Positions 53,252 to 54,628 of a stretch of DNA of 64,000 bases are shown piece by piece. The position numbers and the translations under genes were made by a program. Source of the DNA: Paraburkholderia aromaticivorans (GTDB lineage: Bacteria > Pseudomonadota > Gammaproteobacteria > Burkholderiales > Burkholderiaceae); the NCBI RefSeq assembly GCF_012689525.1, contig NZ_CP051516.1:496001-560000 (forward strand), in the 5' to 3' direction. The notes beneath the pieces are model-generated. The model did not search any database and was not told where the DNA came from. It saw only the letters and a list, made by a program, of their open reading frames with translations. Numbering within the stretch: the stretch's first letter is position 1; every line of letters begins with the position of its first letter.

Positions 53252-54325
53252 TCAGTTGCCGCTGCCGCGCGCCACACGGCGTTGCTTGACCGCGTCGGCG
53301 AGGCCTTCGAGCACGGCGATGCTCTCATCCCAACCGATGCACGCGTCGGTGATGCTCTGGCCGTACGTCAGCTCGCAGCCTTCCTGCAGATCCTGGCGGC
53401 CGGCCACCAGATGCGATTCCACCATCACGCCGACAATCCGTTCGTCGCCCGAAGCAATCTGGCGGCCGATATCCGCGCACACCGGAATCTGATTCTCGTG
53501 CTTCTTCGAGCTGTTCGCATGGCTCGCGTCGATCATCAGACGCGCGGCGAGACCCGCCTTGCCGATGTCCGCGCACGCGGCATTGACGCTGTCCGCGTCG
53601 TAGTTCGGCGTCTTGCCGCCACGCAGGATGATGTGGCAGTCCTCATTGCCCGCGGTCGAGACGATCGCCGAGTGGCCGCCCTTGGTGACCGACAGGAAAT
53701 GGTGCGGCTGCGAAGCGGCCTTGATCGCGTCGACGGCGATCTTGACGTTGCCGTCCGTGCCGTTCTTGAAGCCGACCGGGCACGACAGGCCCGAAGCCAG
53801 TTCGCGGTGCACCTGCGATTCGGTGGTCCGCGCGCCGATCGCACCCCACGAGATCAGATCGGCGATGTACTGCGGGCTGATCATGTCGAGGTATTCGGTG
53901 CCGGCCGGCAGGCCGAGTTCGTTGATGCGCAACAGCAGTTCGCGCGCGGTGCGCAGGCCGTCGTTGATCTTGAAGCTGTTGTCCATGTGCGGGTCATTGA
54001 TGAGACCCTTCCAGCCGACCGTCGTGCGCGGCTTTTCGAAGTACACGCGCATCACGATTTCGAGTTCGCCGGCGAAGCGCTTGCGCTGCTCGATCAGACG
54101 CCCCGCGTATTCCATCGCCGCCTTCGTGTCGTGAATCGAGCACGGTCCGATGATCACGATCAAGCGGTCTTCCATGCCGTGCAGAATGCGATGCATCGCG
54201 GTGCGCGAGTTGTAGATCACGTCGGACACCCTTTCGTCGCAAGCGAATTCGCGGATCAGGTGAGCGGGCGGCGTGAGTTCTTTCAATTCGCGGATGCGGA
54301 CATCGTCGGTGTTGTGCGGGGGCAT
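53252..54325 (-). CDS. aroG: 3-deoxy-7-phosphoheptulonate (DAHP) synthase, class I AroG type
   Basis: The enzyme condenses phosphoenolpyruvate and erythrose 4-phosphate, the first step of aromatic amino acid synthesis. The 357-aa chain has VIIGPCSIHDTKAAMEYAGR, VYFEKPRTTVGWKGL, GAIGARTTESQVHRELASGL and SCPVGFKNGTDGNVKIAVDA. HFLSVTKGGHSAIVSTAGN and LMIDASHANSSKKHE follow. MPPHNTDDVR at 54325 has GGAGA 6 nt upstream; an in-frame TTG four codons earlier is unlikely. Upstream lies an aromatic-codon leader peptide and terminator, so expression is probably attenuated. Which amino acid inhibits the enzyme cannot be told. Confidence 0.96.
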   Translation of the reverse strand: MPPHNTDDVRIRELKELTPPAHLIREFACDERVSDVIYNSRTAMHRILHGMEDRLIVIIGPCSIHDTKAAMEYAGRLIEQRKRFAGELEIVMRVYFEKPRTTVGWKGLINDPHMDNSFKINDGLRTARELLLRINELGLPAGTEYLDMISPQYIADLISWGAIGARTTESQVHRELASGLSCPVGFKNGTDGNVKIAVDAIKAASQPHHFLSVTKGGHSAIVSTAGNEDCHIILRGGKTPNYDADSVNAACADIGKAGLAARLMIDASHANSSKKHENQIPVCADIGRQIASGDERIVGVMVESHLVAGRQDLQEGCELTYGQSITDACIGWDESIAVLEGLADAVKQRRVARGSGN

Positions 54326-54436: not shown

Positions 54437-54468
54437 AAAAAAAACCGCCAGGCTAGCTGGCGGTTTTT
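54437..54468 (-). terminator. Attenuator terminator in the aroG leader
   Basis: Minus-strand RNA arms are AAAAACCGCCAG (from 54468 to 54457) and CTGGCGGTTTTT (54451 to 54440), with a CUAGC loop. The run of eight U (54444 to 54437) overlaps the 3' arm end. It lies about 112 nt before the aroG ATG and 27 nt after the leader stop codon, so it controls readthrough into aroG and does not end an upstream gene. Confidence 0.88.
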
Positions 54469-54560
54469 CGGGAATTCTCGGTGTCCTGCGTGCACTAACA
54501 CCCCTCTCGATCCGCCAGCGGTCTGAGATGCCAAAAAAAGTAAAAATAAAACTTGGCGGA
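54456..54560 (-). promoter_or_regulatory. Ribosome-mediated attenuator segments 1, 2 and 3 of aroG
   Basis: On the minus-strand RNA, segment 1 (UCCGCCA, 54560-54554, leader codons 2-4) is complementary to segment 2 (UGGCGGA, 54517-54511). Segment 2 (GCUGGCGG, 54519-54512) is also complementary over 8 nt to segment 3 (CCGCCAGC, 54463-54456), which is part of the 5' arm of the terminator. A 2:3 antiterminator and 3:4 terminator are therefore mutually exclusive, with 1:2 as a pause or protector hairpin. Stalling in the FYFYFFW codons would mask segment 1 and allow 2:3. Normal translation to the stop would cover segment 2 and allow termination. Confidence 0.8.
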
Positions 54561-54563
54561 CAT
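54495..54563 (-). CDS. aroG leader peptide with aromatic run FYFYFFW
   Basis: ATG at 54563-54561 opens a 22-codon ORF starting MSAKFYFYFFW and ending at TAG (54497-54495). Codons 5-11 are Phe-Tyr-Phe-Tyr-Phe-Phe-Trp, which is very improbable by chance, especially in a GC-rich genome where these codons are T-rich. The ribosome binding site is weak. The start lies about 30 nt after a predicted transcription start. The peptide should act in cis by ribosome stalling and not as a functional product. Confidence 0.85.
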   Translation of the reverse strand: MSAKFYFYFFWHLRPLADREGC

Positions 54564-54599
54564 GACGAATAAGGTCGCAGGTCAAAAAGGGTGAGTGAC

Positions 54600-54628
54600 T
54601 TTATAACCCGGGCAGGCGGCGCTTGCAA
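54600..54628 (-). promoter_or_regulatory. Promoter of the aroG leader transcript
   Basis: Minus-strand TTGCAA (54623-54628) and TATAAA (54600-54605) are exactly 17 nt apart, near sigma-70 consensus. It places transcription start around 54592 and the leader ATG about 30 nt downstream. No TyrR-like operator was resolved. Confidence 0.75.

Follow-up and report, generated by a model that had tools for sequence, protein, structure and literature searches.

A short open reading frame (ORF) just upstream of aroG, encoding a peptide with seven consecutive aromatic residues, is very probably part of a ribosome-mediated transcription attenuator of aroG, which encodes the entry enzyme of the shikimate pathway; this reading is drawn from the sequence and its comparison with relatives. 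The window, meaning the whole stretch of DNA that was analysed, comprises 64,000 nucleotides of the Paraburkholderia aromaticivorans genome, and all features given here lie on its minus strand. The leader ORF, MSAKFYFYFFWHLRPLADREGC, occupies positions 54563-54495 and has 22 codons, opening with an ATG at 54563 and closing with a TAG stop codon that ends at 54495. Its putative regulatory codons, 5 to 11 (54531..54551; delimited by codon-position analysis), read TTT TAT TTT TAC TTT TTT TGG and specify F Y F Y F F W. Given how often aromatic codons occur in coding ORFs of the window itself, the chance of seven in a row is about 1e-8 per position. A first-pass annotation had described the ORF and its aromatic run exactly, both in sequence and in coordinates, and had rightly named the gene directly downstream as a DAHP synthase: aroG (53252..54325) encodes a type I enzyme that scores 595 bits against the NF006723 equivalog model, above the cut-off of 568. 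The same annotation claimed a near-consensus promoter. A promoter-like sequence, TTGCAA-17-TATAAA, is indeed present between the leader and the preceding gene, tldD (54600..54628; boxes at 54628-54623 and 54605-54600), but with 9 of 12 matches it is weaker than claimed. The TATAAA box is seen in most rows of alignment A1, and the promoter scan of the window reported nothing at this site because its rule requires T at the last -10 position. No Rfam family reached its gathering score in a search of the window; at a lax threshold, RF01859 (Phe_leader) gave 16.6 bits (E 2.9), below its gathering score of 55 bits.

The leader is strongly conserved among near relatives. The best 80 loci of a single scan of genome contigs, with AroG proteins 83-99% identical, came from Paraburkholderia, Burkholderia, Caballeronia, Trinickia, Mycetohabitans, Pararobbsia, Pandoraea, Ralstonia, Cupriavidus, Collimonas and others. 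A short aromatic ORF is conserved upstream of aroG orthologs: it is present in 79 of these best 80 named loci and shortened in the remaining one, L065. The order FYFYF is found in 71 of 81 leaders, window included, and within these 71 the bases of codons F5-F10 are other than the commonest one in 3 of 852 first- and second-position cells versus 82 of 426 third-position cells. Since the core codons vary almost solely at third positions, the leader peptide is probably translated and selected, and change of this kind keeps Phe distinct from Tyr. Three loci (L012, L033 and L054) have a frameshift near the end of the run that removes Trp and the peptide tail while the RNA is retained; these could be sequencing errors in T-runs. 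The plasmid records searched held no near copies of the leader. L065 (positions 1302-1331) comes from Ca. Vallotia cooleyia, a reduced symbiont; its aroG leader is shortened to MLAKFYFIF and its terminator stem appears weakened, as in decay of regulation.

An intrinsic terminator follows the leader at 54437..54464, as had been claimed, and is legible as ACCGCCAG-CTAGC-CTGGCGGT, in which ACCGCCAG is arm F and CTGGCGGT is arm G, with eight T in all including the T-run. The terminator scan of the window did not report 54464-54437, probably because the stem continues into the T-run. Pairing of F with G is upheld in every cell of 34 aligned rows, and 8 cells are changed on both sides, a count reached by 0 of 500 shuffles; the compensatory changes are confined to 2 pairs, which 78 of 500 shuffles matched. 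In a swap test, in which native pairings were compared with swapped ones, F:G gave 0/2000. Two further arms lie inside the ORF. Segment B, the protector arm (TCCGCCAAG; 54552..54560, codons 2-4), can pair with segment C, the antiterminator arm (CTGGCGGA; 54511..54518, codons 16-18), whose core is identical to the 3' arm of the terminator. The helices B:C, C:F and F:G are mutually exclusive, the classical attenuator pattern. CTGGCGGA shows no variation in the rows of A1 (50) or A2 (34); two loci outside both alignments, L065 and L081, differ. B:C is paired in 89-93% of cells (34 rows) with zero compensatory pairs and is hardly more stable than swapped pairs (126/2000, and 2001/5000 on 22 hand-chosen representatives). 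For C:F the swap test gave 99/2000, the repeat on 22 representatives being without power, and covariation cannot test this helix because C is nearly invariant.

From these arms a mechanism can be proposed. Transcription would start near 54592, and the ribosome would enter the leader without a Shine-Dalgarno sequence. With charged tRNAs for Phe and Tyr (and for Trp where that codon is kept) plentiful, the ribosome would reach the stop codon and cover arm C (CTGGCGG), leaving F to pair with G, and RNA polymerase would halt before aroG. If one aromatic tRNA were uncharged, the ribosome would instead stall in codons 5-11 and cover or isolate arm B; with B out of play, C would be free to pair with F, and readthrough into aroG would follow. 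Ribosome stalls were modelled with the RNA covered to 15 nt past the first P-site base and pairing across the ribosome barred. In this masked model the predicted probability of C:F in the window is 1.00 while the A site is at codons 2-12 and falls to 0 at codon 13 and beyond, and the mean over 80 leaders is 0.97-1.00 and then at most 0.26. Under these assumptions, stalling in the run would leave the antiterminator arm free, and a ribosome close to the stop codon would cover it. With pairing across the ribosome allowed, the predicted probability of C:F in the window is 0.30 at codon 10 (the last Phe) and 0.13 at codon 11 (Trp), the means at these codons being 0.32 and 0.23, so that the effect of a Trp stall depends on which of the two models is used. 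In ribosome-free predictions the window's leader favours C:F (0.946), whereas its relatives mostly do not (median 0.06 of 80, with 65% below 0.5).

A feature that the first-pass annotation does not mention is the absence of a Shine-Dalgarno sequence at the leader: across 81 leaders the mean anti-Shine-Dalgarno duplex energy is -0.16 kcal/mol, versus -6.92 kcal/mol for aroG, and a duplex of -4 kcal/mol is reached by 1 of 81 leaders versus 80 of 81 aroG genes. The available part of PMC4046766 cites, by title, work reporting that a leader peptide is formed at ilvBNC of Corynebacterium glutamicum in the absence of a ribosome binding site. The leader RNA also has a better predicted fold than any of 200 shuffles (z -4.1). 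Segment A of the 5' untranslated region (CACCCTTTTT; 54584..54593), located where the transcript presumably begins, is able to pair with segment D (GAGAGGGGTG; 54499..54508) at the ORF's 3' end; this pairing appears in the minimum free energy (MFE) structure and has the support of swap tests. Native A:D pairs beat swapped ones with 0/2000, and with 12/5000 on 22 hand-chosen representatives; the unplanned pair A:E also reached 91/2000, and swap tests of this kind leave shared ancestry in. Helix A:D may fold the leader when it is untranslated. These same features, the missing Shine-Dalgarno sequence, the strong fold and the helix backed by swap tests, could be taken to mean that the ORF is never translated, the aromatic run being a by-product of a U-rich loop in a structured terminator/leader RNA that senses something else. 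Against this stand the three-base periodicity of substitutions, the fixed order of Phe and Tyr, and the retention of aromatic residues in differing orders across divergent families, and we consider an untranslated ORF very improbable. A post-ORF helix, D:E, which by eye varied in step with the 5' untranslated region, was dropped after swap tests gave 626/2000 and 1883/5000.

A sample of 160 genomes of the order Burkholderiales contained an AroG relative at 1e-60 in 122, and 100 stretches upstream of AroG relatives were taken from 98 genomes, three of them (L146, L169 and L182) from second copies. An ORF with at least five F/Y/W in seven residues occurs in 34 of the 100 stretches versus 2 of 1000 mononucleotide shuffles. 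A pair among the 34, from family f27, looks like chance; the other 32 leaders belong to families f1, f3, f4, f7, f9, f10, f11, f12, f19, f22, f38, f42 and f48. A run of five aromatics is absent from 66 of the 100 stretches, and many families show none. The second aroG copies L169 and L182 are without a leader, and the first copies in those genomes have one. Outside the order, 97 genomes had a match; 40 stretches were taken from the places that scored better, and the run is absent from 39; the sole exception (L191) compares as 1 of 40 with 2 of 400 shuffles. The ORF before aroG in L191 ends ARFYRWYYFPKPPAEEGVRAF, similar to Burkholderiales leaders. When 200 genomes of the family were searched with a covariance model built from 34 near-relative sequences, 160 matched, 156 of them at E < 1e-8; the model matched the window's genome once. 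It also matched 32 of the 160 order genomes, in 29 directly upstream of the AroG place when coordinates were compared, five of these scoring below 38 bits; G012, G053 and G118 are the exceptions. Second, weak matches in six genomes (34-37 bits) are by appearance ordinary terminators without an aromatic ORF, and matches near 1e-4 are for that reason no proof by themselves.

The RNA arms recur with the divergent leaders. A terminator with a CCGCC/GGCGG core follows the leader in 30 of 33, and in 24 of these 30 the 3' part of the leader has 6-8 nt in common with the 3' arm of the terminator, an identity matched by at most 10 of 200 shuffles in 16 of the 30. As a control, the 225 nt preceding aroG were examined for a CCGCC-core terminator, which is present in 32 of the 35 stretches that have a leader versus 3 of the 65 that lack one; terminators with this core are also found elsewhere in these genomes. 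The last aromatic codon starts 10-20 nt (median 14) 5' of GGCGG in 29 leaders, and the Trp codon starts 14-29 nt 5' of it in 15. The earlier proposal that this is an attenuator leader of aroG is thus upheld by conservation across the order, codon-level selection, the terminator, the antiterminator arm and the spacing.

Which amino acids the leader would read is a separate matter. The first-pass annotation suggested that it reports the pooled charging of Phe, Tyr and Trp tRNAs. That suggestion is only partly supported. Its Phe and Tyr parts find support in codon conservation only, and Trp is labile: residue 11 is W in 56 of the 71 FYFYF leaders, S in 6, A in 5, G in 3 and L in 1, with Trp replaced in all four Pandoraea loci and some Cupriavidus. 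The Trp codon might be kept for RNA pairing and not for sensing, with UGGC pairing to GCCA in codons 3-4 around the aromatic run. This small hairpin is present in the MFE structure, and in L069, L070, L072 and L080, which have AGC in place of the Trp codon, codon 3 is GCU and the pair is restored; L082, with GGC in place of the Trp codon, likewise has GCU. Yet, judged by eye, in L073 and L077 AGC faces GCC and the pair is broken, the Pandoraea leaders carry GCG at the Trp place, and in other families Trp sits at other positions of the run, so that a pairing role seems to us an unlikely explanation. In the 32 divergent leaders Trp nonetheless exceeds background, making up 22 of 508 residues other than F, Y and M in the whole peptides versus 6.5 expected, kinship uncorrected; for this count the peptides were chosen by F and Y alone, and all 32 qualify. 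Counted inside the runs, Trp makes up 21 of 56 non-F/Y residues, a biased figure given that the runs were themselves defined partly by W.

Among the same 32 divergent leaders Phe occurs anywhere in the peptide in 32, Tyr in 29 and Trp in 18; Tyr falls inside the densest stretch in 27, and of the 12 families all have Tyr and 9 have Trp. Phe predominates over Tyr and Trp in 31 of 32. TTT accounts for 248 of 281 leader Phe codons versus a fraction of 0.178 in window ORFs, whereas TAT is not enriched (58 of 144 leader Tyr codons versus 0.36); the available part of PMC1183508 regards rare codons as too simple an explanation for attenuator codon bias. The universal presence and predominance of Phe and the enrichment of TTT without that of TAT would fit a leader that responds to Phe only, its Tyr and Trp codons having little effect. 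A precedent is the C. glutamicum aroF leader, with a Phe-Tyr-Phe run (given as a prediction in the available part of PMC4046766, and also in that of PMC11802643), whose operon is reported in the latter, with reference to Neshat 2014, to respond when Phe is limiting and not to Tyr availability; codon content by itself is for that reason no proof of pooled sensing. The enzyme points partly the same way, since the best solved chains for AroG are labelled Phe-sensitive (520 bits) or Phe-regulated, versus 351 bits for Tyr-sensitive ones. AroG also scores above threshold against NF009396, the Trp-sensitive AroH subfamily model, however (516 bits, cut-off 463), and the labels are accordingly a tentative guide to its own inhibitor. 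Further evidence against a Phe-only leader is that both core Tyr codons encode Tyr in 71 of 71 FYFYF leaders, despite the single base change that would give Phe, together with the presence of Tyr in every divergent family and of Trp above background. We regard a response to Phe only as possible but somewhat doubtful.

Most likely, then, Phe is the main signal, Tyr the second, and Trp a lineage-dependent, optional third; the reading of Phe and Tyr is supported by codon conservation, and pooled sensing of all three aromatics is possible. The fullest version of this reading, which strikes us as quite possible though short of probable, is that the leader would integrate the charging levels of the Phe, Tyr and Trp tRNAs at the point where the shared pathway begins, with lineages swapping codons while keeping their spacing to the antiterminator arm, and with the covarying helix A:D perhaps folding the start region when the leader is untranslated.

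The first-pass annotation's remark that leader peptides, as in pheA and trp operons, usually sense a single amino acid does not apply to all known leaders: in Escherichia coli the thr leader reads two amino acids and the ilvGMEDA leader three, and the C. glutamicum aroF run mixes Phe and Tyr. The two E. coli leaders resemble the present one in that each has codons for more than one end product (two or three) of related pathways, but the amino acids are others and the likeness is one of codon logic. The E. coli pheA (pheL) and pheST attenuators share with it a Phe-rich leader peptide, exclusive hairpins and a terminator; unlike it, they control the Phe branch or Phe-tRNA synthetase and not the common entry, and the low RF01859 score sets the present leader apart from them. 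Closer in function is the aroR-aroF system of C. glutamicum, which according to the available text of the above sources likewise has a leader peptide before a DAHP synthase gene and stalling attenuation, but belongs to another phylum and has three named aromatic codons with no Trp. The Acholeplasma uORFC-13-1 motif, as described in the available part of PMC8632094, is similar in placing an upstream ORF with Phe codon(s) beside a terminator, only upstream of the DAHP synthase gene aroF; it differs in phylum, has 24 representatives and names only Phe, and we liken it by description. The available part of PMC5343134 deals with attenuation of trp and pheA in gammaproteobacteria, and that of PMC5688073 with 82 short 5' untranslated region transcripts in Burkholderia cenocepacia (Table S3). 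No report of an aroG leader in Burkholderiales was found by title or abstract opening among the matches listed, and none appears in the available parts of PMC2965389, PMC4603805, PMC5688073, PMC5343134, PMC1262725, PMC12125101 and PMC1183508; Panina 2001, Vitreschak 2004 and Neshat 2014 could bear on the question. This kind of attenuator is already known, and its instance at aroG of Burkholderiales appears undescribed in the literature searched. If the proposed mechanism is right, the first step of aromatic synthesis would be under RNA-level control in many Burkholderiales, among them soil, plant-associated and clinical bacteria, and the natural series of leaders with varied mixtures of Phe, Tyr and Trp would lend itself to testing how an attenuator balances more than one amino acid. 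Annotation would then also be able to pick up a peptide gene covered by no Rfam family at threshold.

Several smaller observations concern the neighbourhood of the leader and other aromatic genes. In 52 of 80 leaders (L003-L082), window included (54501-54421), a GTG or TTG at most 6 nt from the leader stop codon opens an ORF that reaches the terminator T-run, compared with 126 of 1397 control positions; such an ORF may be translation-coupled or reflect mere shared ancestry. After aroG, two small neighbouring ORFs of 117 and 110 amino acids (53072-52367) resemble by eye a HigB/HigA-type toxin-antitoxin pair, with zero NCBIfam matches at E 1e-10. The window's genome encodes two type I DAHP synthase relatives, and no type II enzyme was found in it. 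No ORF with at least four aromatics in seven residues was found upstream of pheA, trpE, pheS or the second aroG, at a threshold that would miss a short trp leader. In L236 the ORF MFLNKKRSLISIDRGAWPWRRWSR, at position 1072, has three Trp in six codons and ends 358 nt before the trpE domain match, and is a possible trp leader.
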